Made by a program: the position numbers and the translations under genes. DNA of 46,919 nucleotides from a virus. This document shows, piece after piece, positions 2,573 to 46,919 of this stretch (its first letter is position 1; each line of letters begins with the position of its first letter). The stretch lies in the IMG/VR virus record IMGVR_UViG_3300028735_000001, positions 1 to 46,919 of that record; one strand, 5' to 3'. The notes beneath the pieces are model-generated. The model ran no database searches. It had not been told where the DNA came from and saw only the letters and a program-made list of their open reading frames with translations.

Positions 2573-2578
2573 GCCCGC

Positions 2579-5505: not shown

Positions 5506-5727
5506 ATGTTTCCCGATCCCGCTGATCTCGCCGCCGCTCATGATGCGTACTTGGAGAGACAGCACCGTCTGTGGCTCGCTGACAACCGTGGCCGCATCGA
5601 GGAGATCATCGAGAAGCTGCGCGAGGCGTACTCGCTTTCCCGCAAGGTCTGGTCCAGCGATAAGGACGAGGCGCCGGCGGCGATTCTCAACGCGCTGTAC
5701 ACGGTTGAGTCGGAGCTGGAGGACTGA
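5506..5727 (+). CDS. Hypothetical small helical protein
   Basis: 73 residues from the ATG at 5506 with GGAGG seven bases upstream; a GTG at 5500 is too close to the ribosome binding site. It is charged and helical (NRGRIEEIIEKLREAYSLSR), consistent with a short coiled coil. No family is recognised. Its stop overlaps the start of the PP-loop gene (TGATG). Confidence 0.5.
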   Translation: MFPDPADLAAAHDAYLERQHRLWLADNRGRIEEIIEKLREAYSLSRKVWSSDKDEAPAAILNALYTVESELED

Positions 5728-30637: not shown

Positions 30638-30978
30638 GAATGCCACTGAGAGTAAAGAACATCGAACGGGGATTCCAGGATTCGCAAGGGAGATTCCATC
30701 CGATCCGTGCATCGAGCGACTATGACCCCATCCGGGCAGGTGACAATCTGCCTGAGGAACTAAAGACGAAGTTTTCCCGATCCGGCAGGAAGAAGACAGC
30801 CAAGAAAGCTGCGAAGAAAGCTGGGAAGAAAGCCTCGAAGAAGAAAGTGGTCGCTCGCGGTGCGGCCAAATTGGCTCAGCGGAAGCAGAGGAGGCGGAAT
30901 CCGATCCCTGTCGACCGTTACATCAAGGCCAAGGTCAAACGCACCCGTAGCGGTGACATCAAGATCATGATCAGCTGA
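30634..30978 (+). CDS. Lys-rich DNA-condensing-type protein
   Basis: 114 residues; ATG 30634 overlaps the previous stop, behind AAAGGAAG. Residues ~45-75 repeat KKxAKKA units (TAKKAAKKAGKKASKKK), as in histone H1-like and phage core proteins, followed by KQRRRNPIPVDRY, one copy of the RRNP motif shared with other virion genes. Predicted to neutralise packaged DNA. The N-terminal 40 residues (VKNIERGFQDSQGRFHPIRA) are a small separate domain. Confidence 0.6.
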   Translation: MRMPLRVKNIERGFQDSQGRFHPIRASSDYDPIRAGDNLPEELKTKFSRSGRKKTAKKAAKKAGKKASKKKVVARGAAKLAQRKQRRRNPIPVDRYIKAKVKRTRSGDIKIMIS

Positions 30979-30980
30979 CA

Positions 30981-31835
30981 ATGACGCTGACTAATCCAGT
31001 TCTGGTTCCTCAAGCTCCTCCGGCTCCGCTGCGCTACACGAAGCCGGGGCGGGATCCCCGCTCCGGCTCTGTGCGGCGCGGCGTAGGGCAGTACACTCCG
31101 GACATAAATGATGTGGTCCTGCCGGAGGAGTATGGAGGATCCGGCATCAGTTGGAGTGGAGCAGCGACCAGTTACGGCACAGGCGTCGCCACTGCGGCTG
31201 CCTCCGGGCAGAACGTAGGGCAAGCTGCCGTTCTCGGAGGCGTGGCGACTGCGGGCCAGATCATGTCGGGCTTGACCGCTGCGGCCTGGGCCGTGCCTGT
31301 GATTGGCGCAGCGGTTGCCGGCGTCACGTTCTGGCTGTCTTCGATCTTCAGGCGGAACGCACAGAAGACAGCGGCCACTCAGATCGTGAATCAGATCGAG
31401 CCGAAACTGAAAGAGAACCTGAACGCCTATTTCTCCGGGCCGCGCACGAGGGAGAGCCAAGCGCAGGCACTGCACAACTTCGATGCGGCGTGGGAGGCGA
31501 TGAGGCAGGCCTGTGCGAACTCGCAGCTGGGCGACGCTGGCCGCCGCTGCATCTCGGACCGGGACCGCGGCGCCTGCGTGTGGAAGGCGAGCTGTTCGCG
31601 CCGCATCGACGGCGTCTGCGTGGATTACGAACTGGATCCGGCGGGCGAGTGCTGGAACTGGTTTGTCGGCTACCGCGATCCGATTGAGAAGGATCCGATG
31701 CCAACGATGCTGGCGCAAGGCCGCAGCGCGTTGCCGGGCGTTGCGGATTCCCTGGCGTCTGGCGGCAGCCCGCTGCTGCTGCTGGCAGGCGCGGGACTGA
31801 TCCTGTACTCGCTGCTGTCATCGAAAGGAGACTGA
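30981..31835 (+). CDS. Virion membrane protein with internal glycine/alanine-rich helix
   Basis: 284 residues. Basic, Pro-rich N-terminus; residues ~60-125 are Ala/Gly-rich with a membrane-active stretch (AAWAVPVIGAAVAGVTFWLS); then RNAQKTAATQIVNQIEPKLK and a Cys-rich region (CISDRDRGACVWKASCSRRI) that may form disulfides; a C-terminal span (LLLLAGAGLILYSLL). The Gly/Ala helical region resembles DNA-delivery proteins that insert into membranes. Located among single-span virion proteins; delivery or vertex role is inference. Confidence 0.5.
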   Translation: MTLTNPVLVPQAPPAPLRYTKPGRDPRSGSVRRGVGQYTPDINDVVLPEEYGGSGISWSGAATSYGTGVATAAASGQNVGQAAVLGGVATAGQIMSGLTAAAWAVPVIGAAVAGVTFWLSSIFRRNAQKTAATQIVNQIEPKLKENLNAYFSGPRTRESQAQALHNFDAAWEAMRQACANSQLGDAGRRCISDRDRGACVWKASCSRRIDGVCVDYELDPAGECWNWFVGYRDPIEKDPMPTMLAQGRSALPGVADSLASGGSPLLLLAGAGLILYSLLSSKGD

Positions 31836-31837
31836 CC

Positions 31838-32125
31838 TTGGCGATGATTCATCTCGGCTCCACGGATTGCCAATGCATCTCGCCGCCCTGCCCCTGCGAC
31901 ATGAAGCTCGTCTACGACCCCGGTCAGTGCCCGCTGGGGACGAAAGCGGAGATCTACCGCCCGGAATCCGCACCGGGCGTGGCAACGGCTGCAGTGGTGC
32001 AGTATCGGTGCATTCCGACATCGCCCGTGCTGGCGGGATTCGGAATCACGCCGCAATGGCTTCTCATTGGCGGCCTGGCATTGGCCGCGATCTGGTTTCT
32101 CAGCAGCGGAAAGGAGGACAATTAG
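31838..32125 (+). CDS. LG-[AS] / DPxxCxxGT family membrane protein (copy 1)
   Basis: 95 residues. The TTG at 31838 is well spaced from AAAGGAG (31824-31830); ATG 31844 is further away. N-terminal MIHLGSTDCQC, then VYDPGQCPLGTKAEIYRP, a Cys before the span, and a C-terminal helix WLLIGGLALAAIWFLSSGKE. The order LG[AS], DPxxCPxGT, C-terminal span recurs in 32128, 35342 and 35925. Probably a virion membrane protein with its Cys-containing head outside the membrane. Confidence 0.55.
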   Translation: MAMIHLGSTDCQCISPPCPCDMKLVYDPGQCPLGTKAEIYRPESAPGVATAAVVQYRCIPTSPVLAGFGITPQWLLIGGLALAAIWFLSSGKEDN

Positions 32126-32127
32126 CC

Positions 32128-32481
32128 ATGCCCATAGTGCGGTTGGGAGCTACAAGTGAGGATGCTAATTCCAAAAACTTCAACGGCATAGTCACAGATC
32201 CCGGCCAGTGCCCTGCTGGCACTGTGGCAAATGCATTCAGAACGGCGGACTTGCCCAGCAGCAGGCGGGACGATCTCTCTCAACTGTTCGGCCCGGATCT
32301 GCCTGAGGTTCTGTACACATGCAACTTGCCTGAGCACGCTCCCACGGGTCCGGTCATCGACACTATTCAATCTGGCAACGGTGGCAGCCAGATTGCATCC
32401 AGTCCGCTTCCGCGGTGGCTTCTCCTCGGCGGTTTGATAGTGGCTGCGCTTTGGTTCTTCAGCAGCGGAAAGGGGAATTGA
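32128..32481 (+). CDS. LG-[AS] / DPxxCxxGT family membrane protein (copy 2)
   Basis: 117 residues from ATG 32128; AAAGGAGG lies ten or more bases upstream. Starts MPIVRLGATSEDANS, has VTDPGQCPAGTVANAFRT and ends in PRWLLLGGLIVAALWFFSSG plus KGN. The last 25 residues closely match copy 1 (GGL...AA.WF.SSGK), so the two genes are a tandem duplication that diverged mostly in the middle. Stop overlaps the next start. Confidence 0.55.
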   Translation: MPIVRLGATSEDANSKNFNGIVTDPGQCPAGTVANAFRTADLPSSRRDDLSQLFGPDLPEVLYTCNLPEHAPTGPVIDTIQSGNGGSQIASSPLPRWLLLGGLIVAALWFFSSGKGN

Positions 32482-34118
32482 TGCAGCTGCCAGTGCAAGG
32501 AAAATTCGACGAATCCCCAGGCTGGGCGCTGCGTCCGGCGTGGGGACAGCAGTACGGGCGCAGCAGCACCGGAGGCGGGCGGCCAGAATGGGGCCAACAG
32601 TATGGCCGCAGCCAGACTGCTGCTTCCCTGCGTCTGGCATGGGGACAGCAGTATGGCCGCAGCCAGACTGCGGCTGCGCTGCGGCCTGACAGCCCGTGGT
32701 CCAGGCAGAACCGCAATTCGCAGTGGGGCCGCCAGCGGATGCCCGAGGTGCGCAGATACCTGCGCGGGCTGGGCGGCGCGATCCCGGCAATTATGTCGGA
32801 GCCGGATTACGCGCAGGCCGCATCGGATCCGCAGTACTACTTCCAGGTTCTCTTTCCACGCTACAGCAATCAATACTGGCAGCAGTCGAAAGACTTCGCC
32901 GACGCGGTTATCGCCGATCTCCAGTCGAGAGGCTATGAACTGCGGAATCTGACTCTGGCCTGCGGTTCGCCGGACTGTTTCCCGGCCATGTACTCGTTCG
33001 TGATGGCCAAGGACGGACGATCCATGGATGCGAGCGCCGGGAATCCAATCCGGTTCAACAGTCCCAGAGAAGAGGCGGATTTCCTGGACGCAGCATTCGG
33101 CGGCAGCAGCAGCAGCCCCTATTGGAGCGGCGGTCCGGCGTCGACGTCTGACACGGATATTGGAGCGCTCATCGCCAATACGACTATCACAAGCGTGGTT
33201 GCCGGGGATCCAATATCTCCACAGAGTTGCGGGGCGCTGGTCGTCACTGCCAGCGGACCGCTCAAGGTGATCGGGGGGATGCTGCGGGGTGCGATGATCG
33301 GCTTCCGCTTTACGCATCTGGAGAGCGGAACAAGCTACCCGGCAAACGGAGAGATCTCCTGGGGAGGAAATCTTGCCAGCAGCCAAAGCTCCATCAACCC
33401 CCCGTCCTTTGCCACAGAGTCGTTCATCCTGACGCCGTTAACGAATCCCGGAAACTACAAGGTGGAGGTTTACGCCGGGTATCCGCCGCAAGTTCCCGGC
33501 CAGCTCAAAGGCACCTATTACCTCAGCGTGCCGCAGAGCAAGTGCATCACCAGCTACTATCCGTCGTCAAATCAGACGGCCAACACCGCATCTGCCACGG
33601 CCAACACCGCCGCTACCACGACCACCTACCGCCGCGACGTGCAACTGCTCGCGCCGGACGGCTACCGCGCCGGCGGGAGATTCACGCTGAAGGTTTGGGG
33701 TCCCCCGAACCAGACAGTGGAAATCGCTGCGTGGCAGAACTCGCTCAGCCACGGGCGCACGGCGTACGGAACTACGGATTCCTCCGGCTACTTCGAAATC
33801 AGCGGCGTCTGGGCGCCGGAGCACGCAGGCCGCTGGCAGGAGGACATCTATGTCGGAGGCGAGATCGTCGGCAGGCTGAGCTTCGAGATCACTGCGCCGC
33901 AGCAGACGCAACCGCCGGCGGACACGGTGGTGATCCTGCCTCCGGCGAACCAGCCGCCGCAGCCGGGATCGGGATCCTCTGTCGAAATTCCGTCTGACGG
34001 AACAGGCAATGGAAACGGAGATGCGGCGCCGTCGAGGCAAGCTGGATTCTCCATCTCGCCGACAGTGCTTCTTGTCGGTGCGGCGGCGCTGTTGTTCCTT
34101 TTGGGAGGCAAGAAATGA
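32481..34118 (+). CDS. Large membrane-anchored surface protein with WGQQYGRS repeats
   Basis: 545 residues, ATG at 32481 behind AAAGGGG. Three copies of WGQQYGRS at residues ~21-70 (units of 16-19 residues), a region ~85-190 of mixed fold, then two beta-sandwich-type stretches (~225-370 with NPGNYKVEVYAGYPPQVPGQ, ~380-480 with PDGYRAGGRFTLKVWGPPNQ and SSGYFEISGVWAPEHAGRW, which reads as an Ig-like domain). A Pro-rich linker leads to a C-terminal span (PTVLLVGAAALLFLLGGKK). Likely a spike or surface protein of the virion membrane. Confidence 0.55.
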   Translation: MQLPVQGKFDESPGWALRPAWGQQYGRSSTGGGRPEWGQQYGRSQTAASLRLAWGQQYGRSQTAAALRPDSPWSRQNRNSQWGRQRMPEVRRYLRGLGGAIPAIMSEPDYAQAASDPQYYFQVLFPRYSNQYWQQSKDFADAVIADLQSRGYELRNLTLACGSPDCFPAMYSFVMAKDGRSMDASAGNPIRFNSPREEADFLDAAFGGSSSSPYWSGGPASTSDTDIGALIANTTITSVVAGDPISPQSCGALVVTASGPLKVIGGMLRGAMIGFRFTHLESGTSYPANGEISWGGNLASSQSSINPPSFATESFILTPLTNPGNYKVEVYAGYPPQVPGQLKGTYYLSVPQSKCITSYYPSSNQTANTASATANTAATTTTYRRDVQLLAPDGYRAGGRFTLKVWGPPNQTVEIAAWQNSLSHGRTAYGTTDSSGYFEISGVWAPEHAGRWQEDIYVGGEIVGRLSFEITAPQQTQPPADTVVILPPANQPPQPGSGSSVEIPSDGTGNGNGDAAPSRQAGFSISPTVLLVGAAALLFLLGGKK

Positions 34119-34297
34119 CAGTGCAGCCCGCAGGAATTTCACAGACTGGATCGATTGTGCAGCCGTCCGGGCAGCAAGACTTGGCAACGGTCTACGCCCA
34201 ATTGTTTGTGCTGGGATTCATCGCCTGGATCTTCTGGAGCGTGTTTGTTAAAGAAGACAAGCCGCAATCGTTTTCCGGATCCGGAAAGGAGAGGTGA
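34115..34297 (+). CDS. 60-residue single-span membrane protein
   Basis: ATG at 34115 overlaps the previous stop. Short polar N-terminus, hydrophobic helix ~27-45 (YAQLFVLGFIAWIFWSVFV), then KEDKPQSFSGSGKER. Same topology as the neighbours; no family. Confidence 0.5.
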   Translation: MTVQPAGISQTGSIVQPSGQQDLATVYAQLFVLGFIAWIFWSVFVKEDKPQSFSGSGKER

Positions 34298-34791
34298 TGG
34301 AAGAAGAAAATATCGACTGGATGAAATACATCCTCATCGGACTGGGTGCGCTGCTTGTGTTCCAGTGGCTGCGCGGGCAGTACAGAATGTCATCCGAACT
34401 GGTTGTCGGAGGGCAGCCCCTGCAGCCACAGCAGCCGCAGCAGCCGCAGCAGCCGCAGAGCACATCGTCAATGCCGATGCCGGAGAGTACCGGCACTGCT
34501 CCTCCGGACGACGTGCTCAAGCAGGCAGCGCTCGATCCGGCGAAGGCGTCGCTCACCGGGGATTGGCGCTACAGCTGGCACGCCTGGAACTACTACCGGG
34601 CGCAGGCGGCCATCGAAGCGGGCCTGTGCTCGCCTCCGTGCTCGGAGTACGCGCCAGTGCTTGGCGAACGCTTCGGGCTGACCGACTCGCAGGGCCTGAC
34701 GGCGAGCGAGTACCACGCATATCTGGCGCAGATCGGCATGGGCCGCCTGTTCTGGGGCCGTAACGCCGTGCAGAGCAGCTGGAGGATGTGA
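34297..34791 (+). CDS. Virion-type protein with N-terminal membrane anchor and PQQ linker
   Basis: 164 residues from ATG 34297 (GTG 34294 possible), behind AAAGGAGAGG. Here the span is N-terminal (YILIGLGALLVFQWL), followed by a linker of QQP repeats and a C-terminal domain (~85-164) with WRYSWHAWNYYRAQAAIEAG and ASEYHAYLAQIGMG, which is helical and aromatic-rich. Inverse topology to most neighbours. No known family. Confidence 0.5.
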   Translation: MEEENIDWMKYILIGLGALLVFQWLRGQYRMSSELVVGGQPLQPQQPQQPQQPQSTSSMPMPESTGTAPPDDVLKQAALDPAKASLTGDWRYSWHAWNYYRAQAAIEAGLCSPPCSEYAPVLGERFGLTDSQGLTASEYHAYLAQIGMGRLFWGRNAVQSSWRM

Positions 34792-34794
34792 GCG

Positions 34795-34974
34795 ATGATG
34801 TGCTCCATGGAACCGGGATTTATCAGCAGCACCCTGGACTGGGACGCTTACCTGCAAACCCCGCAAGGGCCGCAGGGGGCTGAGCAGACGGAGTGGAAAA
34901 TCCCGGCCTGGATCTGGATCGCCGGCGCATTGGCATTGATGCTTGCGCTCAGGAGCGGGGAGGAACAGCGATGA
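34795..34974 (+). CDS. 59-residue single-span membrane protein
   Basis: ATG at 34795 (or 34798) behind GGAGGATG; ends at a TGA overlapping the next ATG. Reads MMCSMEPGFISSTLDWDAYL, a Gln/Gly-rich stretch, then a membrane helix KIPAWIWIAGALALMLAL and RSGEEQR. It fills the otherwise empty gap between two virion genes and has the same design as they do. Confidence 0.5.
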   Translation: MMCSMEPGFISSTLDWDAYLQTPQGPQGAEQTEWKIPAWIWIAGALALMLALRSGEEQR

Positions 34975-35333
34975 TGTTGCGGCTTGGCGCCTACGACCCC
35001 AACGAGGAAATGCTGGACGTCTACTACTCCTCCGGAGCGGACGTCACGGATCCCAACGAGGAAATGCTGAACTCCTACTACTCCTCCGGAGCGGGCGTCA
35101 CGAATCCCGACTCCGTTCCATCCGGCGGATCCTTCAATACGATCTCAATTCCCGGAACAGTGCAGCCGCAGCAGCAGCCGGCGCAGCAACCGTCCGGGAA
35201 CTCAGGTGCTCCGTCTGTGGACTCAGGCGCGGTGTACCGGGTCACGACTACGGCGAAAATGCCTCCGGATCTCCCTTGGGGTCTTTTGATCTTGGGCGCC
35301 GTGGCGCTGGTGATGCTTGTCAGAAACAATTAG
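34971..35333 (+). CDS. LG-A family membrane protein with tandem 18-residue duplication
   Basis: 120 residues, ATG 34971 overlapping the previous stop, behind GGGGAGGAA. N-terminus MMLRLGAYDPN belongs to the LG-[AS] group. Two 18-residue units follow (DPNEEMLDVYYSSGADVT and DPNEEMLNSYYSSGAGVT) encoded by a 54-base tandem repeat (34995-35048, 35049-35102). A Gln/Pro/Ser linker precedes a C-terminal span (PWGLLILGAVALVMLVRNN). Unknown virion membrane role. Confidence 0.5.
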   Translation: MMLRLGAYDPNEEMLDVYYSSGADVTDPNEEMLNSYYSSGAGVTNPDSVPSGGSFNTISIPGTVQPQQQPAQQPSGNSGAPSVDSGAVYRVTTTAKMPPDLPWGLLILGAVALVMLVRNN

Positions 35334-35341
35334 AGGATTTT

Positions 35342-35629
35342 ATGTTTGTGAATCTGGGCAGCACGGAATCAACGACGATTTCCAGCCAGGGCGGATTCCT
35401 CGTGGCGAACGCAACTGGCGCCGCTGCTGCGGACTGCTCGGATGTCCGCAACTGGAGGACCGCCGTGATCAACGGAAAATGCGTGCAGGTCTGCGGATCG
35501 GATCTGTCTACGGCGATTGAACTGGATCCTGCATCCTGTCGGCAGGGAACGATTCTCGGCATGGATGCCAAGACTGTTCTGCTCGCCGCCGCAGGAGGGA
35601 TTCTGCTGCTGGTTCTGGTGAAATCATGA
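35342..35629 (+). CDS. LG-[AS] / DPxxCxxGT family membrane protein (copy 3)
   Basis: 95 residues, ATG at 35342 after AGAGGA. Starts MFVNLGSTESTTISSQ, has NGKCVQVCGSD, then ELDPASCRQGTILGMDAK with the DPxxCxxGT motif just before the span, and ends in a helix (TVLLAAAGGILLLVLVKS). The motif lies closer to the membrane than in copies 1 and 2. Confidence 0.5.
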   Translation: MFVNLGSTESTTISSQGGFLVANATGAAAADCSDVRNWRTAVINGKCVQVCGSDLSTAIELDPASCRQGTILGMDAKTVLLAAAGGILLLVLVKS

Positions 35630-35928
35630 GGGACACGACCGGTCGTCTCGACATCCTGGCTTTCGGCATCCTCGAGCGCATCGTGCAGCGGGATCCGGTG
35701 GCAAGCGCAGTGTTCCGCCTGCTGGAGCCTCAGATCCGGGACACGCTGCGAGTGCTGGACGTGCCCTTGGTCCGCGCAGCAGTGAAGCAGGAAGCGGCTA
35801 AAGCGAAAGCGGAGAGCCGGCAGAAGGTGTCGCCGCCCCGGCGGAAGAGGAAGCAGATTCCGGCTGCGGTGACCGTGACCGGACCGGATGGCAGAGCCGA
35901 AGTCGTGGAAGCGGAGTGGGTCTCATGA
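35626..35928 (+). CDS. Small soluble protein with basic middle
   Basis: 100 residues, start overlapping the previous stop. N-terminal helices (LDILAFGILERIVQRDPVAS), a basic patch (SPPRRKRKQIP) and an acidic end (GRAEVVEAEWVS). No membrane span, unlike its neighbours. The VTVTGPDGRAEVVEAEW end resembles C-terminal tails of other small phage proteins. Function unknown; an adaptor between DNA and membrane is possible. Confidence 0.45.
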   Translation: MRDTTGRLDILAFGILERIVQRDPVASAVFRLLEPQIRDTLRVLDVPLVRAAVKQEAAKAKAESRQKVSPPRRKRKQIPAAVTVTGPDGRAEVVEAEWVS

Positions 35929-36371
35929 TGGTGCGTCTCGGAGCAGTTTCGGTAGCCGTGGTTGACAATCCGAACAAGTGCCCGGCGGGCACCTATCCGT
36001 CCACTGTCGCCGTCGCCACCGGAGCGTCCACGCCCCGCTATGAGTGCCTGTCTGGCGAGCCGTGGTACTGCGAGTGGTTCGGCATCGGTTGCAAGGGCGT
36101 TCCCACTGTGGCTCCCGCCGCGCCGCAGACGGAGCAGCAGATGCGGGATCCGGAGCAATGGACGCCGGAGACGAGCGTGGATGCGTCCAAGCAGGCCCAA
36201 GACGCAGTAACCGCCCAATGGCTCGCCAACACGGAAGGCGTCGCCCAGTTCCCGTCCTGGCTGTCGGAAACCGGAAACGATGTGAAGGACGCGTTGACGG
36301 CGCCGAGCTTGTGGTTCGTCGTGGGGGCCGCTGCAGTGGTGGCTGTGATCATTCTGGCAAAGAGGGTTTGA
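35925..36371 (+). CDS. LG-[AS] / NPxxCPxGT family membrane protein (copy 4)
   Basis: 148 residues from ATG 35925 overlapping the previous stop. N-terminus MMVRLGAVSVAV, then VDNPNKCPAGTYPSTV, a Cys/Trp-rich section (GEPWYCEWFGIGCKG), a helical polar middle, and a C-terminal span (LWFVVGAAAVVAVIILAKRV). It is the longest of the four motif-bearing paralogues. Confidence 0.55.
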   Translation: MMVRLGAVSVAVVDNPNKCPAGTYPSTVAVATGASTPRYECLSGEPWYCEWFGIGCKGVPTVAPAAPQTEQQMRDPEQWTPETSVDASKQAQDAVTAQWLANTEGVAQFPSWLSETGNDVKDALTAPSLWFVVGAAAVVAVIILAKRV

Positions 36372-37453: not shown

Positions 37454-38661
37454 ACATCTACAGCACAGGCGGGGACGAGGCGGTCTGGACTCCGGACGGA
37501 TCTGCGCACGCGCTCGGCAGCGCGGCGCACCTGGACTACGAGTCTGCAGTGGAGCTGCTGCGGATCCTGGGACTGGCGAAGGTCAGGAATCCGAAAAAAG
37601 GCGCTGGCGAGGAGGATCCCTGGCGCAAGACTTCGGAAGACCGCGTGAAGAAACTGCTTGCATCGCCGGACATCAAGTCCCGGTTCAAGGCGGTGCAGGA
37701 AGCGCTGCTCGAACTCGGCATGGCGCCGTCGAAGGACAAGGCGCAGGCAATCGTGCTGTGGTCGCCACGCCGCCTGGCGAACGTGAGCCTCAACAGCGGC
37801 AACCAGAAGACCGGGCCGACGCTGTGCACCAACGCCTCGCAGGCCAGCTGCCCCGATGGCACCAATAACGAGAGCGGATTCCGCTGCCCGCTGTACGACT
37901 CCGGCTGCTATGCGGAGGACGGCAACCAGGGTCTTCAACACACGGCCAAGCTCAACGAGGCGGCGGGGATCAACACGGGAAAGCGCGCAGTGGGCAAGGA
38001 TCCGTCGAAGAGCCGCTACACGCCGGAGGACGTGGCCGAGGACGAGGCGGCGGTTCTCGGAATCGTGCATCCGTTCTGGCAGCTGCTCAGGCTGAACAAC
38101 GGCGTCCGGCTGCACGTCGTCGGCGACTGCGTGACGCCGTCTGCGGCGAGAACCGTCGGCAGCGCGGCCAGGACGTTCGCCGAGAACAGGCTGACCGGCG
38201 CCGGGGTGCGCGAGAGCGGCGCGGCGGATGCGAAGAACGTGTGGAACTACACGCATGGCTGGCGCGATGTGCCGCGCTCGGCATGGCCGGGCGAGATCAG
38301 CGTGCTGGCCAGCTGCGACACGGTCGAGGATCTTGAGGAGGCGCACCGCAAGGGATACGGCGCCGCCGTGGTCGTGCCCGACTACATCCAGCAGAAGATC
38401 GGAGAGACGGCACGCTACTCCGGCAAGGCGATGACGACGGAGAACGGTTTCCGCCTGATCCCGTGCCCGTACGAGGTGGCTCACAAGAACAACCAAGGCC
38501 AGCGAATGTGGTGCATCGAGTGCAAGCTCTGCCTGCGGGACGAATTCCTGCACCGGACCCGGAGCGCAATCGCGTTCGCTGCGCACGGCACGTCTGGAGC
38601 GAAGCGTACCACGGCGCAGCTTATCCAGATCGAGAGTCTGACCCCAGGAGCATCAGCATGA
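37450..38661 (+). CDS. Cys-rich phage protein (DUF7227-like)
   Basis: 403 residues from ATG 37450. Residues ~105-155 have SLNSGNQKTGPTLCTNASQA, SCPDGT and CPLYDSGCYAE; then RLHVVGDC (about 218-225), NYTHGWRDVP, ISVLASCDTVEDLEEAHRKG and IPCPYE, then MWCIECKLCLRDE. This Cys pattern and motif order match a phage family (DUF7227-like) with intact C-terminal CxxCxLC. The clustered cysteines suggest a metal or Fe-S site. Usually found in tailed-phage accessory genes; here it lies in the virion block and carries KVRNPKKGAG, one of the RNP motifs. Activity unknown. Confidence 0.55.
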   Translation: MNIYSTGGDEAVWTPDGSAHALGSAAHLDYESAVELLRILGLAKVRNPKKGAGEEDPWRKTSEDRVKKLLASPDIKSRFKAVQEALLELGMAPSKDKAQAIVLWSPRRLANVSLNSGNQKTGPTLCTNASQASCPDGTNNESGFRCPLYDSGCYAEDGNQGLQHTAKLNEAAGINTGKRAVGKDPSKSRYTPEDVAEDEAAVLGIVHPFWQLLRLNNGVRLHVVGDCVTPSAARTVGSAARTFAENRLTGAGVRESGAADAKNVWNYTHGWRDVPRSAWPGEISVLASCDTVEDLEEAHRKGYGAAVVVPDYIQQKIGETARYSGKAMTTENGFRLIPCPYEVAHKNNQGQRMWCIECKLCLRDEFLHRTRSAIAFAAHGTSGAKRTTAQLIQIESLTPGASA

Positions 38662-40010
38662 GCGGATTGGACGCATTTTACCGGTCACTTGGCGTTGGCG
38701 GCGGGAAAAAGAATCCCTACCGCCGCAGCATTCGCAATCCAAAAGCGGCGTACTCCTTGGCCCGTCTGCAAAGCGAACTGGCGAGACTGCCAACGTACCA
38801 TGAGAGCATCGCGGAGGTGAATGACGCCCTGGAACGCGCTCTACGCAAGCACGGGCTGTCGCTCGCCGGCTATGTCGACCAAGCCGTGCCGTACGACCAG
38901 ACACGGATGATGATCCTGCCGACATCGGATCCCATGCTCTATATCTCCGTGCAGGTCTACCGCACTCCCAACGGGAGGTACGAGCTGACGACGTATGCGA
39001 CGCGGGACGCCCGGCGCCGGCGCAATCCGGAGGGCGACGTGGAGGACACGGCAGCAGAGTACATCATCCACGGGCTGATCCAGCAGTGGCGATCCGAAGT
39101 GTTGTCCGGCAATTCTGTTTACGAGGAAGCGATTCCCCTGGGCAAAGGCGCAGCGATGATCGTGCGCCCTGCGGAAACCTACGAGGAACGGGAATCCGTG
39201 CTCTTCGACGTCTACTTCTGGACGGAGGCCAGCGGCGCCGGCGGAGAATGGAAGCGCAACAGCGACGTCTATTACGAATCGCTGGTCAGCTCGGACGACT
39301 GGAGCTTTTCGGATCTCAAGGAGGCTTTGCACTACGCCATGCATCACAAGACCCTGCGCGGGTTCCAGCCCGTGCATTCCAGGGTGACGGGCAAGGTTCT
39401 GCCGCCGGAAACCCGGTTCGGCATCATGCGCAACCCGGGAGAGGACGAGCCGACGGAATTCGAAGTCGACTCCGACGTCCCCGCCGGCTCCGGCGAGGAG
39501 CCGCCAGAACTGCCGCGACCGGAGCTTGCGCTCGACCGCGCCGAGGGGATTTACGAGGAATTCCACGGCAAACCGAGCGAGGAGCTGATCCAATCGGAAG
39601 AGGAAATCCGCTTGCGCGACACGCTGGCCGTGCTCGGGCGCCTGGTGCAGATCATCGTGGAATCGGCAGACGCGGACCGCTACTCGATCACGTTCGGAGA
39701 CGATACGCTGCTGTGCGTCAGCGACGATGGCAAGCAGCTCTACGCCGTGGGCGGCGACCAGAGTCTCGACCTGGAGTCTCTGGGAGTCTCCGGCCCTGCT
39801 GCTGAAAAGGACAAGGTTTTTGTCGGATCTGCGCTGCAGGTGACCTACCGCACGCGGAAGCAGTTCGACGACTTCGCCGAAGTGGACTACGTCCACGATT
39901 TCGGCGAGGATGGCGGAACATTGCCGCTGCTGGTGTACGACCGCCTCAACCAGACGGTGGAATTCGCCGGCGGCGACTACGAGATCAAGCGCGAGGGCAT
40001 CGTCAACTGA
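38658..40010 (+). CDS. Unknown virion-region protein with several RNP motifs
   Basis: 450 residues, ATG at 38658 after CCAGGAG. Basic N-terminus with KKNPYRRSIRNP (about 19-31), RRRRNPEGD (~115) and IMRNPGEDEP (~255), placed between apparent domains. N-terminal helical region, a beta/alpha middle (MIVRPAETYEERESVLFDVY) and an acidic C-terminus (FGEDGGTLPLLVYDRLNQ). No known family. The spacing of RNP motifs at domain boundaries suggests processing sites. Confidence 0.5.
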   Translation: MSGLDAFYRSLGVGGGKKNPYRRSIRNPKAAYSLARLQSELARLPTYHESIAEVNDALERALRKHGLSLAGYVDQAVPYDQTRMMILPTSDPMLYISVQVYRTPNGRYELTTYATRDARRRRNPEGDVEDTAAEYIIHGLIQQWRSEVLSGNSVYEEAIPLGKGAAMIVRPAETYEERESVLFDVYFWTEASGAGGEWKRNSDVYYESLVSSDDWSFSDLKEALHYAMHHKTLRGFQPVHSRVTGKVLPPETRFGIMRNPGEDEPTEFEVDSDVPAGSGEEPPELPRPELALDRAEGIYEEFHGKPSEELIQSEEEIRLRDTLAVLGRLVQIIVESADADRYSITFGDDTLLCVSDDGKQLYAVGGDQSLDLESLGVSGPAAEKDKVFVGSALQVTYRTRKQFDDFAEVDYVHDFGEDGGTLPLLVYDRLNQTVEFAGGDYEIKREGIVN

Positions 40011-40048: not shown

Positions 40049-40804
40049 ATGGCGACAATCAAGCTGGTGCGGCGGCTAGCCAATCCCCGGAGAGTCCGCC
40101 GCACCAATCCGAGAAAAAGGCGGCTGAAGTCGCGCCGCCGCAACCCTGCGCTCGTGCTCACGCTGGGCGCAGTCAATCCGAAACCCAAAAGGAGAAAGAA
40201 CAGTATGGCTCGTTCCTATCGTCGTCGCAAGAACGCCCGGCGCCGCCGCACGGCCCGCAAGGCGATGGTGTTTCCTCTCATCCGCGTGAAGGCCAACCGC
40301 CGCCGCCGCCGCCGCCGGAATCCGGTCGTCATCCGCACTCGCCGGCGCTACGCCCGCAGGCGCCGGAATCCCGTGTTCAGCCCGGGCAACTGGACTGTCG
40401 TTGGCGGCGGCCTCGTCGGCGTGGCGGCCACCCGGTTCCTGGGACAGGTGATCCCGCTGGGAATGCTGGGTTTCGCCGGCGGCATGGCTCCGTTGCTGCG
40501 CGACGCCATTGCGGCGTTCGTGGTGAGCTGGGGCGGCAACGCCGTAGTGGGCACCGGCAGCGACAGCAAGACCAAGTTCCGCGACGGCATCACCTTCGGG
40601 GCGTTGATGCAGGTCGCGAGCACGGCGATCTCTGCCTTCGTGCCGAGTCTGCGGCAGTACGGCTTCGGCATCAGCGGCATGGGCTACATGATGCCGGCGC
40701 AGTTCCCGGTTCCGCAGAATCCGCTCGCTCTGCCGCCCGCTCCGGCTCCGCAGGCCCGTGTCACTGCCAACGGCCTGTCCCGCGCGTTCGGCACTGCATT
40801 CTGA
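40049..40804 (+). CDS. Arg-rich DNA-binding-type protein with membrane-active C-terminal half
   Basis: 251 residues, ATG 40049 behind GGGAGG. Residues 1-110 are extremely basic with six NP sites (LANPRRVRRTNP, SRRRNPALV, RRRRRNPVVI, RRRRNPVFS). Residues ~115-250 are Gly/Ala-rich and hydrophobic (VVGGGLVGVAATRFLGQVIP, FGALMQVASTAISAFVPSL). A second start, ATG 40205 with AAAAGGAG upstream, would give a 199-residue form lacking the first 52 residues. Likely links packaged DNA to a membrane or shell, or condenses DNA. Confidence 0.5.
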   Translation: MATIKLVRRLANPRRVRRTNPRKRRLKSRRRNPALVLTLGAVNPKPKRRKNSMARSYRRRKNARRRRTARKAMVFPLIRVKANRRRRRRRNPVVIRTRRRYARRRRNPVFSPGNWTVVGGGLVGVAATRFLGQVIPLGMLGFAGGMAPLLRDAIAAFVVSWGGNAVVGTGSDSKTKFRDGITFGALMQVASTAISAFVPSLRQYGFGISGMGYMMPAQFPVPQNPLALPPAPAPQARVTANGLSRAFGTAF

Positions 40805-40821
40805 CGTTGTTTTCCGCAGAG

Positions 40822-40849
40822 GGGGCGCCCGTACAAGGCGCGGCGCCCC
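40822..40849 (+). repeat. 8-bp GC hairpin upstream of the capsid candidate gene
   Basis: ggggcgcc (40822-40829) pairs with ggcgcccc (40842-40849) around a 12-base loop, in the 131-base gap before the gene at 40936. There is no T-run. It may stabilise a processed transcript of the downstream gene or act as a weak attenuator. Confidence 0.5.
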
Positions 40850-40935
40850 GTCGGCGGCGGTGAGAAACCAGGCCCGGCAGAGATGCCGGAGACGATTCAC
40901 AGCATCCGCCCCAAGGGCGGGAAGGAGACAATGCA

Positions 40936-41556
40936 ATGGCTGCTTATGACCAGATGATTCTCGATGCATTTCGCAGCGAGACGTACGTCAACAACCGGAT
41001 GGACGTGCAGCACACGCCCATCTACGACACCATCGAAATCGCTGCCGCAACCGCAGTGACCGAGCTGAACACGGCGTTCTTCACCAACGTCGGGCCGGCC
41101 AGCAACAAGACCAAGGCGAAGACCAACATGAGCCAGTCGCGGCGGCTGCCCGCTCCGGAGGCGTTCTCGATCTTCGGATTCCGCCTGCGTTGGCGCGAGG
41201 ACATTCTGCCCGCCGACTTGTTCGGGATTTTGGACAACTTCGTGCTCCAGTTCTACCTGGGCCAGAAGATCTACCAGGAAGCTCCGCTGTGGTACTTCAG
41301 CCCCGGCGGCGGCGTCAACGCGGTTGTGGCTCTGGACGGCGCATCGTCCGCCACGACCATCGACTACTTCACCAACGGCGTGCCGCATCGCGAGTCGATG
41401 CACAAGCTCGCCATCCCCATCGTCATCGAGAACCAGATGACGTTCTGGGCGCAGTTGTCCGGCGGCACCTACACTCTGGCCACCAGCGCCAACGGCGGCA
41501 CCGGACTCCAGCTCCAGCTCATCCTCGACGGCTTCTACGCCCGCGGCGTGCAGTGA
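40936..41556 (+). CDS. Candidate major capsid protein (small, possibly single jelly-roll)
   Basis: 206 residues, ATG 40936 with GAAGGAG 8-14 bases upstream. It is beta-rich, free of membrane segments, cysteine-free and evenly composed: PIYDTIEIAAATAVTELNTA, LPAPEAFSIFGFRLRWREDI, LYLG-like FYLGQKIYQEAPLWYFSPGG, HKLAIPIVIENQMTFWAQLS. Its own spacing before and after, the strong ribosome binding site, and the 12-bp hairpin directly behind it suggest a separately abundant message, as for capsid genes. It precedes a run of small beta-rich proteins. It does not look like an HK97-fold capsid protein. The jelly-roll call is inference. Confidence 0.5.
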   Translation: MAAYDQMILDAFRSETYVNNRMDVQHTPIYDTIEIAAATAVTELNTAFFTNVGPASNKTKAKTNMSQSRRLPAPEAFSIFGFRLRWREDILPADLFGILDNFVLQFYLGQKIYQEAPLWYFSPGGGVNAVVALDGASSATTIDYFTNGVPHRESMHKLAIPIVIENQMTFWAQLSGGTYTLATSANGGTGLQLQLILDGFYARGVQ

Positions 41557-41582: not shown

Positions 41583-41610
41583 GGGAGGGGGCTTCCCGAA
41601 GCCCCCTCCC
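41583..41610 (+). terminator. Perfect 12-bp hairpin after the capsid candidate gene (partial terminator or stabiliser)
   Basis: gggagggggctt (41583-41594) and aagccccctccc (41599-41610) pair perfectly around CCCG. What follows is ctgattcaaaa, not a T-run, so full termination is unlikely. Such a structure directly after a capsid gene can protect the upstream message from 3' decay or cause partial read-through. Confidence 0.6.
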
Positions 41611-41645: not shown

Positions 41646-42077
41646 ATGCGCAACAATCCCTATGCGCCGCCGGCGATCCGAGGACTCGGCCAGCAGCCGG
41701 AAACGGCCCGGTACATTGACATCCCCCGGTTCCACCGCATCGATGTGTCGCTGGCGGCGAGCGAATTCATCCGCGACCGGGCAAGCGAGTTCAGCGACGA
41801 GGGCGATTTCATTCTCAGGGCCATCACAGTGGCTTCTTTCACCGGCGCATTCAGCGTGCAGTTCACCGACGCCAACGGCTACGCGCTGTCCAACACGCTT
41901 ATCAACCACTACACGTTCCTGGGCGCGAACAACAGCCCTGTGCCGTTCCCGGTGTTCCCCGAGGTTGTGTTCCCCAAGAGCAGCAAGATCAGCCTGAACA
42001 TTCTCAACCTGACCAGTGCACCCAACACGGTGGTCTTCCTGCTGCACGGAGTGATGCGGGCGCAGGCGCTCAGGTAA
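41646..42077 (+). CDS. Beta-sandwich virion protein 1 (capsid or spike candidate)
   Basis: 143 residues, ATG 41646, with CAGGAG 11-16 bases upstream. After a short N-terminal arm (RNNPYAPPAIRGLGQQPE) come predicted strands: GDFILRAITVASFTGAFSVQ, FTDANGYALSN, FPVFPEVVFPKSSKISLNIL, NTVVFLLHGVMRA. The order (F.LR.i, f.d.nG, P..vFP..s.i.l.i.N, v.l.G) is shared with the next gene. Consistent with a single small jelly-roll. Confidence 0.5.
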   Translation: MRNNPYAPPAIRGLGQQPETARYIDIPRFHRIDVSLAASEFIRDRASEFSDEGDFILRAITVASFTGAFSVQFTDANGYALSNTLINHYTFLGANNSPVPFPVFPEVVFPKSSKISLNILNLTSAPNTVVFLLHGVMRAQALR

Positions 42078-42089: not shown

Positions 42090-42914
42090 ATGGACTACTT
42101 CGACCTGCCGTTCTTCTACGCTTATGACGCGTCGGTTTTGGCTAATGGCCAGAGCTACGACGGCCTGTCGCTCGCAGTCGACCGGGACGCCGAGTTCCGC
42201 TTGCGGGCCGTGTTCGGAATCAACCTGGTGTGCTCCGGCGGACTATACTTCTACGACGGCAGCGGGAGGCCTGCGACGCCGGGCGGATTTATCCACACGG
42301 GCAATCAGCCGCTGCTCGTGCAGCCGGAGATCGTCTATCCTCCCGCAGGGCAGATCCGGTTCAATCTGTCGAACGTGCAGCGGGCGGCGCACAACTACAC
42401 CGGCGTGCAGAAGGCGTACTACAGCATCCTGGGATTCTACGGTGTGAAGCGGTTCACGGGCGCCGCTGCGCAGCTGATGATCGAACAGAGCCACAGCAAG
42501 GTGCCGTACCGCTACTACCCTTACCAAATCCGCAACGACCTGACGGTGAACATCTACAGCCACATCGCGCCCGGCTTCACGCAGGAAGAAGCGCCAAGGC
42601 AGTTCCTGGTCGAGGTGGACAACTACGGCTACGACTGGTTCGCTTTGGCGGGCGAGCCGGGCCTGCTCAACAACAAGCTGCTGCTGATGCCTTACGATTC
42701 CAGCGGCACGAGACAGCTCGCGAGCGACTTCGTGCCGTCGTCGTTCCTGGCGTGGCTCCCGCACCGCCCATGGGCCTGTTTCCCTTCAGCGCCCGTGTTC
42801 TTCCCGGCCAGTTCACAAATGCGGATCGACTGGAAGAGCCGCTACACGGACGCGGACACGCTGCCTGCGGTTGTGCCGATCACGCTGATCGGAGCAAGGA
42901 GGATCGGATGCTGA
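42090..42914 (+). CDS. Beta-sandwich virion protein 2 (two-domain size)
   Basis: 274 residues. Residues ~25-125 repeat the pattern of the previous protein: DRDAEFRLRAVFGINLVCSG, LYFYDGSGRPATPGG, PEIVYPPAGQIRFNLSNVQ, YYSILGFYGVKRF. The second half (EEAPRQFLVEVDNYGYDWFA, MRIDWKSRYTDADTLPAVVP) is also beta-rich, so the length would fit two stacked sandwiches or one with a tower. Likely the partner of the 206-residue or 143-residue protein in the shell, or part of a vertex. Confidence 0.5.
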   Translation: MDYFDLPFFYAYDASVLANGQSYDGLSLAVDRDAEFRLRAVFGINLVCSGGLYFYDGSGRPATPGGFIHTGNQPLLVQPEIVYPPAGQIRFNLSNVQRAAHNYTGVQKAYYSILGFYGVKRFTGAAAQLMIEQSHSKVPYRYYPYQIRNDLTVNIYSHIAPGFTQEEAPRQFLVEVDNYGYDWFALAGEPGLLNNKLLLMPYDSSGTRQLASDFVPSSFLAWLPHRPWACFPSAPVFFPASSQMRIDWKSRYTDADTLPAVVPITLIGARRIGC

Positions 42915-43435
42915 ACGCCATTGCCGACGGATTCACGCTGCATCCCGGCATGATCGAAGGGCCGGGCCGCTACGAGCCGCTTGCCATTGCACAACTCGAA
43001 CTGCTGCGCCAGGCGCGGACATACAAGCCGAACTGGGTGCTGGTGCCGGAGAACAACCAGCAGATCCCCGCGTTCGGCAGCTACCAGTACCAGGTTCACC
43101 TCAAGCCGGGCAGCTGGCTGTACGGCTTGCAGCTGACCGTGCTCGATGTTCTGGACCAGCCGGAGCTGGCGATGGACAAGGCCGTGCTGAGCGTGCAGAT
43201 CACGGAGACCTACAGCGGAGCGCAGATCTTCAGTGATCACAGCCGGACACAGCCGTTGTGCAACCAGTGCTGGTTCGGCGACACATCCCGGCTCCAGTTT
43301 TTCCTGCTCGCGGAGCCGAAGGTCGTCATCGATCCGGGCGACCTGGACGTCGACGTCTGCAATCTGACTGACTCGGCCCGCAAGTGGAACCTGATCTTGT
43401 TCACGGCTGAGCCTTACGAGCTGGTGGAGGCGTGA
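42908..43435 (+). CDS. Beta-sandwich virion protein 3
   Basis: 175 residues from ATG 42908 (AAGGAGG upstream), overlapping the previous gene by seven bases. Strands PAFGSYQYQVHLKPGSWLYG, LQLTVLDVL, DTSRLQFFLLAEPKVVIDPG and DVDVCNLTDSARKWNLILFT follow the same overall order as the two preceding proteins, though identity is low. Probably another member of the group. Confidence 0.45.
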   Translation: MLNAIADGFTLHPGMIEGPGRYEPLAIAQLELLRQARTYKPNWVLVPENNQQIPAFGSYQYQVHLKPGSWLYGLQLTVLDVLDQPELAMDKAVLSVQITETYSGAQIFSDHSRTQPLCNQCWFGDTSRLQFFLLAEPKVVIDPGDLDVDVCNLTDSARKWNLILFTAEPYELVEA

Positions 43436-43437: not shown

Positions 43438-43821
43438 ATGGCATCGGGGTACTATGTGGCAGGTTACCTGACCAACGCGGATCTGAGACGGCTGCGCAGC
43501 ATTCAGCGTGCTCTGGATTCCATCTACAACGACTCCGGGCTGCTAACTGCGGCCCAGCGGGACAGGATCCTGATCGCTTGCTCTGACGCGCTGGAGCACT
43601 ACAACCAGTACTACTACGGGTGGGATCTGCAGGAGACCCAAAAGCATCTGGAGAAGGTGAAGGATTCCGCCAGCATCATCAGCAATGAGTTGTACTGGCT
43701 GATGATGCGGATCGAAAAGAACCCCTACCTGACACCGGACAGGAAGAGAAAGTACCGCAAGCATATCCATACAATCCAGAAGGCGATGTCTGGTCTCAAG
43801 GCCAGGAAGGACGGACTCTGA
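43438..43821 (+). CDS. Small helical virion-region protein
   Basis: 127 residues from ATG 43438 with GGTGGAGG seven bases upstream. Almost all helical (RLRSIQRALDSIYNDSGLLT, WDLQETQKHLEKVKDSASII) with a basic end (RKRKYRKHIHTIQKAMSGLK). The only all-helical product in this beta-rich run. Could be a linker, a minor capsid or a scaffold protein. Confidence 0.45.
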   Translation: MASGYYVAGYLTNADLRRLRSIQRALDSIYNDSGLLTAAQRDRILIACSDALEHYNQYYYGWDLQETQKHLEKVKDSASIISNELYWLMMRIEKNPYLTPDRKRKYRKHIHTIQKAMSGLKARKDGL

Positions 43822-44354
43822 TGCTGCAAGGCCAGTATGTTCCGAAGGCGAACGACGCGGACCGCACGCTGTGGACGCTGACGCTGGAAACGCCCCGCTG
43901 GAAGAGCGAGCGCCTGTTCGGCTCGAGCCGCTACCGCGAGGACCAGCCGCCGTGGCTGGTGATGCCGCCGAACGCGGTTCCGTTCCAGAAGTTCAACTCC
44001 ATTGCGCTGCCTGCAGCGAACGGAAACGATGTAACCGTGCTGCAGTTCGTCGTTCCGCAGGGCTACGACGGCGTCATCAGCTCGCTGGTGCAGCAGTACA
44101 CGGGGACCGGGTTTGTCGACGGCAGCGGCGATCTGAAGTGGCGCATCCGCATCGGCGACCGCTGGGCCGAGGACATGGGCAACATGATCACCCAGCTGGG
44201 CAGCCTGCAGTCGCCTTACCAGATCTACCGCAGCGGGATCCGGCTGCGAGACCGCGACGCGGTCAGCTATGTGGTCAACCACGCAGTGGGAAGCAGTCTT
44301 AGCGGAGGCCGCATCATCTGCGGCTGCTTCGGGTGGTACTATCCCACGGCCTGA
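43821..44354 (+). CDS. Spike-type beta protein, paralogue of the C-terminal domain of the gene at 27
   Basis: 177 residues, ATG overlapping the previous stop. VVPQGYDGVISSLVQQYTGT, GFVDGSGDLKWRIRIGDRWA, QLGSLQSPYQIYRSGIRLRD and GGRIICGCFGWYYP match the domain at residues ~195-315 of the fibre-like protein at 27-1004. The GYDGVIS...TGTG[FY] module is frequent in uncharacterised phage virion proteins. The stand-alone form here may be the vertex base and the longer one its host-binding extension. Confidence 0.55.
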   Translation: MLQGQYVPKANDADRTLWTLTLETPRWKSERLFGSSRYREDQPPWLVMPPNAVPFQKFNSIALPAANGNDVTVLQFVVPQGYDGVISSLVQQYTGTGFVDGSGDLKWRIRIGDRWAEDMGNMITQLGSLQSPYQIYRSGIRLRDRDAVSYVVNHAVGSSLSGGRIICGCFGWYYPTA

Positions 44355-44774: not shown

Positions 44775-45785
44775 ATGGCAATCAGCATTCTGTGGATCGA
44801 CGGATTCGACGAGATCGGCGGCCAGGATCAGAAGTACTCGGCCTCCGAGCGCTCGACCAACCAATTATCCGGGCCGAATGCAGCCTACGGTTACGGCAGG
44901 TCGCTGCGGGTGCAGAACGGCTGGGTCGCGCCGGTGCTTTCCGGCGCTCCGTTCACCATCTTGTTCTCAGCGTTTGATTTGATCCTGTATTCCAATTACG
45001 ACGTCACGCAGCTGCAGTTCGAGTTCTGGGATGCAGCGGCTGGAGCCGTGCAATGCTACCTGAAAACCGCGTTGAATCAAACTACCATTGGCTACGATCT
45101 GCAGTTGTACCGGGGAGCGGCACTGCTCTACACCTGGACCGGCGTTCTGCAGCACGGCGTCTGGCAGCACGTCAGCCTGCGGTACAAGGTTGACCCGGTC
45201 GCCGGAAGCGTGACCCTTGCGGTGAACGGCGTCGACAAGGGCACGTTCACCGGCAACACGCAGAACACGGCCAACACCCGGGTGGACAGGTTCCGGCTGA
45301 ACATGACAGTCGACAATGACCGGGTCAACGTCGATAACTGGATCATCGCCACCGGACTAGCGGCGGATCCGCTGCTGCCAGTGACCCGGGTTTATGGCGC
45401 TCTGATGCCGAACGCCAATGTCGCCGTGCAGTTTACTCCCAACGCCGGAACGAACTGGTCCAACGTGAACCAGATCCCGCCGAACGACACCAGTTACAAC
45501 AGCACATCGATCTCCGGCAACCGGGACGTGTTCTCCCATGCAGATCCCGGGTCGGTCGGCGACACAGTTCTTGCGGTGCGTGCCGACGCCCGCGCGTATG
45601 CGGACGCGGGCGATCAGATCCAAAACCTGGTGCGGGTGTCGGGGACGGATTACTACGGCACGGCGAAGTCGCCGACGACGAGCTACTTCAGCTACGGCCA
45701 CATCTGGCAGAACAACCCGGCGACCAGTGCGCCGTGGACGCCGAGCGAGGCGATCAATGCAGGATTCGGATACAGGAGGGTGTAA
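44775..45785 (+). CDS. LamG-like adhesin 1
   Basis: 336 residues from ATG 44775 (GTG 44772 possible). The N-terminal ~205 residues are a concanavalin A/LamG-like sandwich (ILWIDGFDEIGG, HGVWQHVSLRYKVDPVAGSV, LAVNGVDKGTFTGNTQNTAN, VNVDNWIIATGLA). The C-terminal part has VQFTPNAGTNWSNVNQIPPN, DVFSHADPGSVGDTVLAVRA and YGHIWQNNPATSAPWTPSEA, the domain commonly found after LamG in phage fibres. Likely binds host surface glycans. Tandem paralogue of the next gene. Confidence 0.75.
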   Translation: MAISILWIDGFDEIGGQDQKYSASERSTNQLSGPNAAYGYGRSLRVQNGWVAPVLSGAPFTILFSAFDLILYSNYDVTQLQFEFWDAAAGAVQCYLKTALNQTTIGYDLQLYRGAALLYTWTGVLQHGVWQHVSLRYKVDPVAGSVTLAVNGVDKGTFTGNTQNTANTRVDRFRLNMTVDNDRVNVDNWIIATGLAADPLLPVTRVYGALMPNANVAVQFTPNAGTNWSNVNQIPPNDTSYNSTSISGNRDVFSHADPGSVGDTVLAVRADARAYADAGDQIQNLVRVSGTDYYGTAKSPTTSYFSYGHIWQNNPATSAPWTPSEAINAGFGYRRV

Positions 45786-46817
45786 ATGGCCTACACATTT
45801 CTCTGGATAGATGGGTTCGACGAGATCGGAAACGCCAATCAGAAGTACACTGATGGCGGCGAGATCACCCAAGGGCTGGGCACCAGCACCAACGCCCCGT
45901 TCTCCTATGGGAGATCCTTGGGTTGGTCCAGTACAAGCGCGACTTTGCAAAAGGTTGTTTCCGGCGCTCCGTATACGGTCTTCTTCGTGGGTTTCCATTT
46001 CCTGATAAACAGCCCAGACACTACGGAGAGGAACTTTCTCCAGTTTCTGGATGCGCAGAACAACGTCGTGCAGATCGAGCTGCGGAGGATCTGGGACAAC
46101 GTGCTGCTGAAGCACGTCCTCCGCCTGTACAGAGGATCCACGCTGCTTGCCACCAGCTCTGACGGAATCCCGCAGAATACTTGGGTATGGCTCAGCGTGA
46201 AGCACGTCTGCAGCCAAACCACCGGGGTGGTGGAGGTAAAACTCAACAACGCAACCGTGCTCACCTACAGCGGGAACACCCAGAACGGGGCTGTAACGCA
46301 AGTGCATCGTCCGGCGATCCTGAGCGGAGCCACTCTAAACAGTGCTTTCAATGTAGACAACCTGGTGATCGCCACCGGGCTTGCATCCGATCCACCGCTT
46401 CCCGAGTGCCGGGTCTTCGGCGCGGTGGTTCCCACATCCAACTTCAACGTGCAGTTTACTCCCAACGCCGGAACGAACTGGTCCAACGTGAACGAGATCC
46501 CGCCGAACGACGACACCAGCTACAACTTCTCGAACACGGTTGGCGCAACGGACGTGTTTGTCTGCGCCCCGCCGACGCTTACCGGGGTGATCCCGGCGAT
46601 CAAGGTCAACTTCCGGGCGCGGAAGGATGACGCCGGAGTCCGGGAGCTTGCACCGATCATCCGGCCCGGAGCGACGAATCACCAGGGAACGGCCATCGAG
46701 ATCCTCTCGAACTACTTCAATCGGGGTTATATGTGGACGATGAATCCCGACACCGGGCAAGCGTGGAACCCAGGCGATGTCGCGAATCTGAAGTTCGGAT
46801 ACAGGATCGTGACCTGA
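45786..46817 (+). CDS. LamG-like adhesin 2
   Basis: 343 residues, ATG at 45786 directly after the previous stop. Same two-domain plan: FLWIDGFDEIGNANQKYTDG, YRGSTLLATSSDGIPQNTWV, VVEVKLNNATVLTYSGNTQN, VDNLVIATGLASDPPLPECR, then VQFTPNAGTNWSNVNEIPPN and RGYMWTMNPDTGQAWNPGDV. It shares an exact 46-base stretch with adhesin 1 (45425-45470 and 46448-46493) while flanking sequence has diverged. Two receptor-binding proteins, or a recombination partner to vary the first. Confidence 0.75.
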   Translation: MAYTFLWIDGFDEIGNANQKYTDGGEITQGLGTSTNAPFSYGRSLGWSSTSATLQKVVSGAPYTVFFVGFHFLINSPDTTERNFLQFLDAQNNVVQIELRRIWDNVLLKHVLRLYRGSTLLATSSDGIPQNTWVWLSVKHVCSQTTGVVEVKLNNATVLTYSGNTQNGAVTQVHRPAILSGATLNSAFNVDNLVIATGLASDPPLPECRVFGAVVPTSNFNVQFTPNAGTNWSNVNEIPPNDDTSYNFSNTVGATDVFVCAPPTLTGVIPAIKVNFRARKDDAGVRELAPIIRPGATNHQGTAIEILSNYFNRGYMWTMNPDTGQAWNPGDVANLKFGYRIVT

Positions 46818-46919
46818 TATGGCTGTTCGCGTCAGCCAGACGAACAAGGAGATCGCGGGGACGTCGTCCTCGCCGACTGCCCGCGTCACGCAGGCGAATG
46901 CGGAGATCCTGTCCACTGA
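46793..46919. repeat. Right copy of 127-bp terminal direct repeat, with 5' end of the gene at 27
   Basis: This is an exact copy of bases 1-127. It contains the stop of the second LamG-like protein (46815-46817) and the ATG at 46819 of the same gene annotated at 27-1004, cut off by the window end. Counting both copies would duplicate the first 101 coding bases of that gene. Confidence 0.9.

Follow-up and report, generated by a model that had tools for sequence, protein, structure and literature searches.

Viruses with single vertical jelly-roll capsid proteins have recently been set apart by the ICTV as the realm Singelaviria (PMC12714852). Among the described viruses considered here, the phage SSIP-1 contains a membrane and has two types of major capsid protein (MCP) (PMC6356626, PMC4958249) and is described as almost without sequence similarity to anything in GenBank (PMC6356626), HCIV-1 has a linear genome of 31 kb (PMC4958249), and the large MCP of P23-77, VP17, is a two-barrel protein (PMC4958249). 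Here we analyzed a viral DNA stretch of 46,919 nucleotides (IMG/VR record IMGVR_UViG_3300028735_000001; hereafter the window), in which a sequence-only reading had proposed that the gene at 40936-41556 may encode an MCP, with a size like that of the single vertical jelly-roll proteins of P23-77-like phages. According to our analyses, the product is very probably a capsid-type single jelly-roll protein, and we consider it likely to be the MCP, either by itself or together with a partner protein, of a tailless icosahedral dsDNA phage. The earlier proposal was thus partly upheld: a capsid-type jelly roll, a conserved virion-type gene block, and codon bias speak for it, whereas kinship to P23-77 was not supported, given the lack of sequence similarity, the larger genome, and the absence of a detected FtsK-type ATPase. 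The features concerned are listed in Table 1.

Table 1 Features of the window around the proposed capsid gene, in order of position.
Coordinates	Strand	Feature	Basis or remarks
29703-30314	+	Transglutaminase-like protein, C-terminal hydrophobic segment	SSIP-1 gp34 relative; in 11 of 12 relatives
30305-36371	+	Candidate virion membrane proteins: a string of small products, the majority with a hydrophobic C-terminal segment	Hydropathy
38658-40010	+	Conserved protein, 450 aa, before the capsid block	13 of 13 genomes
40049-40804	+	Arginine-rich protein (RRNP motif), 251 aa, hydrophobic C-terminal half	13 of 13 genomes, always just upstream of 40936
40814-40857	+	GC-rich imperfect hairpin upstream of 40936-41556	Arms 40814-40829 and 40842-40857, 88% complementary
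40922-40927	+	Shine-Dalgarno sequence AAGGAG	8 nt 5' of the ATG of 40936-41556
40936-41556	+	Proposed major capsid protein, single jelly roll, 206 aa	Conservation, predicted fold, codon bias
41583-41610	+	Perfect 12-bp hairpin, 4-nt loop, without a T run 3'	Hairpins also found at this position in G004, G001, and G002
41646-42077	+	Second predicted jelly-roll protein, 143 aa; candidate co-capsid or vertex protein	Alignment, model, fold matches; 13 of 13 genomes
42090-42914	+	Protein with two tandem domains, 274 aa	Each domain related to 41646-42077 (HHalign probability 99.0 and 98.1)
42908-43435	+	Conserved protein, 175 aa	13 of 13 genomes, fixed order
43821-44354	+	Spike or vertex candidate, 177 aa	C-terminal domain in common with fibre-like protein 27-1004 (profile probability 100)

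The ORF at 40936-41556 starts with ATG and, as had been stated, encodes 206 residues without a single cysteine. The ribosome binding site that had been called strong is indeed present; 6-7 nt Shine-Dalgarno matches also precede at least 15 other window genes, and a strong signal is therefore not unique to this gene. In a codon-based gene model of the window, the ORF has flanking gaps of its own, as claimed (131 nt on the 5' side, 89 nt on the 3' side), and every other gene between 34.1 and 46.8 kb has at most 38 nt free on both sides. The companion claim that genes overlap elsewhere holds for this block; in other parts of the window, further gaps of 75-355 nt occur, so the flanking gaps are not unique either. 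Across the window and twelve relatives inspected in full, 35-222 bases lie before the homologous genes and 64-816 after them.

Searches of the protein and its alignments against PHROGs, Pfam, and PDB sequences gave chance-level matches only, and tblastn against phage isolates returned zero matches for the products of 40936, 41646, 43821, 30981, and 12906. A blastn search of plasmids with the 38.7-44.4 kb block likewise gave no match. On the other hand, five scans of IMG/VR, with the alignment widened each time, recovered 17 other contigs with a relative of the protein (34-92% identity). These contigs are 25-62 kb long, most of them 41-62 kb. A genome scan added one 3.6-kb MAG contig binned as Methylophilaceae, which is too short to fix a host. 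Additional partial matches were found in G015 (E 1.9e-11) and, marginally, in G009; the G015 match, at 30018-30527 of that contig, is a second copy of the family gene, partial and divergent, encoded on the opposite strand. The family alignment contains 26 invariant positions, including a C-terminal L-x-G-x-x-A-R stretch. These results point to an uncultured virus group that is absent from the reference collections searched.

An AlphaFold model and a Foldseek search, two of the checks suggested along with the proposal, gave a predicted jelly roll with viral capsid chains among the best matches. The AlphaFold2 model, built from ten family sequences, is moderately confident (pLDDT 70, pTM 0.66) and predicts a single jelly roll; strands make up 10 of its 14 listed secondary-structure elements, in agreement with the description of the protein as beta-rich. 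Foldseek against the PDB returned nothing below E 0.001, with the satellite panicum mosaic virus capsid, Sulfolobus polyhedral virus 1 (SPV1), and the FLiP penton ranked first to third. In a second-look structural realignment against 989 chains, scored by Z, the first rank went to SPV1 chain 6oj0_A (Z 8.4, 3.1 Å, 133 residues, 15% identity), and HHIV-2 (Z 6.6), SH1 (6.4), and HCIV-1 (6.2) ranked second, third, and fifth. Models that lack a clear match often still reach a top Z of 7-8, and the value for SPV1 is close to this usual background; the weight therefore rests on the fact that four of the five top chains belong to tailless jelly-roll viruses. Capsid proteins were also among the best matches to viral models, and the best BFVD model was I1ZBH9 (211 aa, E 9e-5, probability 1.00, TM 0.47).

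The chain in fourth place, from the tail fibre of Agrobacterium phage 7-7-1, together with fibre-like repeats in some window proteins (27-1004), would fit a fibre or decoration domain from a conventional tailed phage. We consider this very improbable, given the outcome of the searches for tailed-phage hallmarks. The HK97 capsid (Phage_capsid) and Phage_portal models had zero matches in 16 genomes, and Terminase_6N, the only terminase model run across the relatives, had zero matches in 13 genomes, with control genomes positive in each case. Further, of the Pfam and PHROG matches listed for 69 proteins of the window, none is to a terminase, a portal, or a major head protein. They do include a family A DNA polymerase, UDG, an ERCC4 nuclease, AAA_24, an integrase, ParB, and DinG-like and SNF2 helicases. 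The window has no Rfam family and no tRNA.

A more modest role within a jelly-roll virion was also considered, in which the protein is a minor component (penton, vertex, or decoration) and the real MCP is the product of 41646-42077 or another gene. Pentons and decoration proteins are jelly rolls as well, the FLiP penton is the third Foldseek match, and the KHP40 and KHP30 cement proteins occur in the realignment list. However, SPV1, HHIV-2, SH1, and HCIV-1 outrank these cement proteins by Z (differences below 1 count as ties), and it is the 40936-41556 family that combines the strongest mean codon bias with isolated expression signals and high conservation. A minor role therefore seems unlikely.

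The reading as an MCP was further examined in its genomic context. Contig breaks aside, the gene order 38658, 40049, 40936, 41646, 42090, 42908, 43821 is constant in the window and its relatives. The product of 40049-40804 is possibly a DNA- or membrane-facing virion protein. Further upstream lies the run of small proteins headed by the transglutaminase-like gene, within which 30981-31835 and 34297-34791 were found in 13 of 13 genomes. This conserved virion-type gene block, in genomes where tailed-phage hallmarks were not detected, supports the reading as an MCP. Several other features of the window were observed. A 620-aa protein encoded at 27574-29436 on the minus strand, opposite to nearly all other genes, has homologues in 11 of 12 relatives, which always lie on the strand opposite to the capsid gene. 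The adjacent paralogues 44775-45785 and 45786-46817 match PHROGs 2448 and 6368, the former with a weak lectin-like match, and their products are possibly receptor-binding proteins. Low-complexity stretches were seen in the products of 12155-12892 (a long threonine-aspartate-alanine run) and 2564-3316 (a long acidic Glu/Asp run).

The gene following the proposed capsid gene deserves separate treatment, as its product could be either a partner of the 40936-41556 protein or the true MCP. Its structure model (pLDDT 82) is better than that of 40936-41556, and its solved matches include PHM, the STIV turret, SH1, SPV1, HHIV-2, and P23-77 VP17 (Z 7.5-8.9). The predicted fold is generic, with PHM, nucleoplasmin, and viral proteins scoring alike. 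One special case of the main reading, whose probability overlaps with it, is that two MCPs build the capsomers, namely 40936-41556 with 41646-42077 (or with the tandem 42090-42914), in the manner of the small and large MCPs of P23-77, SH1, and SSIP-1. The first two genes both encode predicted jelly rolls, are adjacent, and are conserved in 13 of 13 genomes, the tandem domains of the same family in 42090-42914 recall the two-barrel VP17 (PMC4958249), and codon bias is high in 41646 and 42090 too. Nevertheless, the 40936 and 41646 families have no profile similarity to each other, and the fold of 41646-42077 is generic; we regard a two-MCP capsid as possible but rather doubtful.

Codon usage was in line with an abundant product. 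Among 19 core families in 13 genomes, the 40936-41556 family had the highest mean rank for C-ending codons; it ranked first in 5 of the 13 genomes and fourth in the window, and only 16th of 17 in G010. The 41646 and 42090 families also ranked high. This bias fits high expression but, as ranks are non-independent across related genomes, it is suggestive only. Both hairpins described in the sequence-only reading were recovered. The GC hairpin given as 40822-40849 turned out to be the perfect 8-bp core of the larger upstream hairpin, which is retained in the nearest relative, G004, and the perfect 12-bp hairpin lies straight after the gene as described. It is one of just 5 sites in the window with a perfect stem of at least 10 bp; ten genome copies generated with a first-order Markov model contained one such stem in total and none of 12 bp. 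The perfect 12-bp stem exceeds chance expectation. Elsewhere in the window, perfect 15-bp and 12-bp inverted repeats were noted at 22054-22086 and 22139-22170, inside the coding region 21991-22752.

At the place of the downstream hairpin, G004 has a nearly identical sequence, G001 a hairpin of different sequence, and G002 one with an imperfect stem; the hairpin of G003 is weaker, and more distant relatives have no comparable perfect stem after the homologous gene. This distribution is compatible with a structure kept in one subgroup rather than a group-wide feature. The hairpin is no canonical intrinsic terminator because the T run 3' of the stem is missing (the sequence there is CTGATTC), and it does not appear in the list of terminator-like sites. 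Whether it terminates or attenuates transcription instead of shielding the capsid mRNA is a question separate from the role of the protein. A strong GC stem right after the stop codon, within an otherwise tightly packed block, would suit termination or attenuation, but the T run is missing, the capsid-block genes downstream still need transcription, and no promoter-like site is listed between 41556 and 41646. We regard this function as quite plausible, though we lean slightly against it.

Taken as the MCP, the 40936-41556 chain would fold into one jelly-roll sandwich at residues ~22-206, preceded by an N-terminal helix and a loose arm (residues 1-21). Many copies would tile the shell; we infer that the protein is present in virions and forms the majority there. 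The shell would probably lie over a putative internal membrane, which the small membrane-type products of the upstream genes would hold in place, and 41646-42077 and 42090-42914 may supply second capsid, vertex, or spike components. Placed alone between two hairpins, the gene might have its mRNA made or kept above the level of its neighbours.

How such a particle would be filled was considered as well. The FtsK_SpoIIIE ATPase was absent from 16 genomes, and the P-loop ORFs of at least 120 aa in the window include no obvious packaging-ATPase candidate, although a divergent one is possible. The gene at 12906-13688 encodes a RecA-like AAA_24 ATPase (Sak4-like) that 10 of 12 relatives also have, possibly an unconventional packaging enzyme or a recombinase. 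Regarding the genome itself, the window ends in an exact 127-bp direct repeat (1-127 and 46793-46919), and the end overlaps of several relatives measure 123 or 127 bp; these overlaps mark the genome as circular, and their lengths suggest that they stem from the k-mer used by the assembler. We tentatively propose, with less than even confidence, that the window represents a family- or order-level lineage of tailless single jelly-roll phages of 41-62 kb, larger than the known kin compared, with an unrecognised motor (e.g., 12906-13688) or no need for one.

If the main reading is true, the single vertical jelly-roll viruses would gain a sizeable uncultured group, consisting of the window and its 17 relatives, with larger genomes and replication genes of its own. 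The 206-aa protein would then serve as a marker gene for finding more such viruses, and the missing packaging motor would become a concrete question.

Compared with described viruses, the resemblance to archaeal ones is one of fold. SPV1 (Portogloboviridae) provides the closest capsid fold (chain 6oj0_A), with the comparison standing at the fold level only, and SH1, HHIV-2, and HCIV-1 match in capsid fold (Z 6.2-6.6) but are likewise archaeal viruses. No link was found between this group and the phages with a putative internal membrane from a Methylomirabilis reactor (PMC5099504). With P23-77 (Matshushitaviridae, Halopanivirales), the window has in common the single jelly-roll capsid logic, a kinship at the fold level only, and VP17 matches the neighbouring 41646-42077 product at Z 7.5. 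However, kinship to P23-77 was not borne out at the sequence level: VP16 and VP17 gave HHalign probabilities of 0.6 and 0.2 and no sequence similarity. Neither occurs among the best 50 realignment rows for 40936-41556, which does not speak against a match further down the ranking. The P23-77 genome measures 17,036 bp, compared with 46.9 kb here (a nearly threefold difference). One of its genes is annotated as a putative packaging ATPase, and a search for an FtsK-type ATPase in the window was negative. The window should not be filed under the P23-77-like phages, because sequence similarity and a corresponding genome size were both looked for and not found.

SSIP-1 offers a closer parallel, with differences as well. 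Its capsid proteins have no significant sequence similarity to those of the window, no counterpart of its gp45 was found here, and the family A DNA polymerase, UDG, and two helicases of the window are unmatched in SSIP-1. Searching the complete SSIP-1 record with the profile of the 40936-41556 family gave nothing. Among 28 SSIP-1 proteins, gp46 matched the family profile best, at the same N-terminal position (residues 22-90 against 18-82, 22% identity), with an E of 0.016 that is not significant over several hundred comparisons; no gp46 relatives other than SSIP-1 itself were found in IMG/VR. The best viral structural match, I1ZBH9, fits gp46 in length (211 aa) and is presumably this virion protein, an assignment made from length alone, as SSIP-1 ORF35 also has 211 aa. 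The PAPS reductase relative at 5727-6143, apparently shortened here, has 138 aa versus 282 aa in SSIP-1. This enzyme is common to both (E 2e-20), and the product of 29703-30314 resembles the virion protein gp34 (E 1.7e-5 with a single sequence, 4.1e-49 with an iterated profile); sharing transglutaminase-like and PAPS reductase domains is weak evidence of kinship, because both are widespread. Further, both genomes are circular and of similar size (43.8 kb in SSIP-1, 46.9 kb here), and in both the capsid-type genes are grouped in a single block. SSIP-1, a salt-lake phage with an internal membrane, is thus the nearest known cousin of the window and a better comparison than P23-77.
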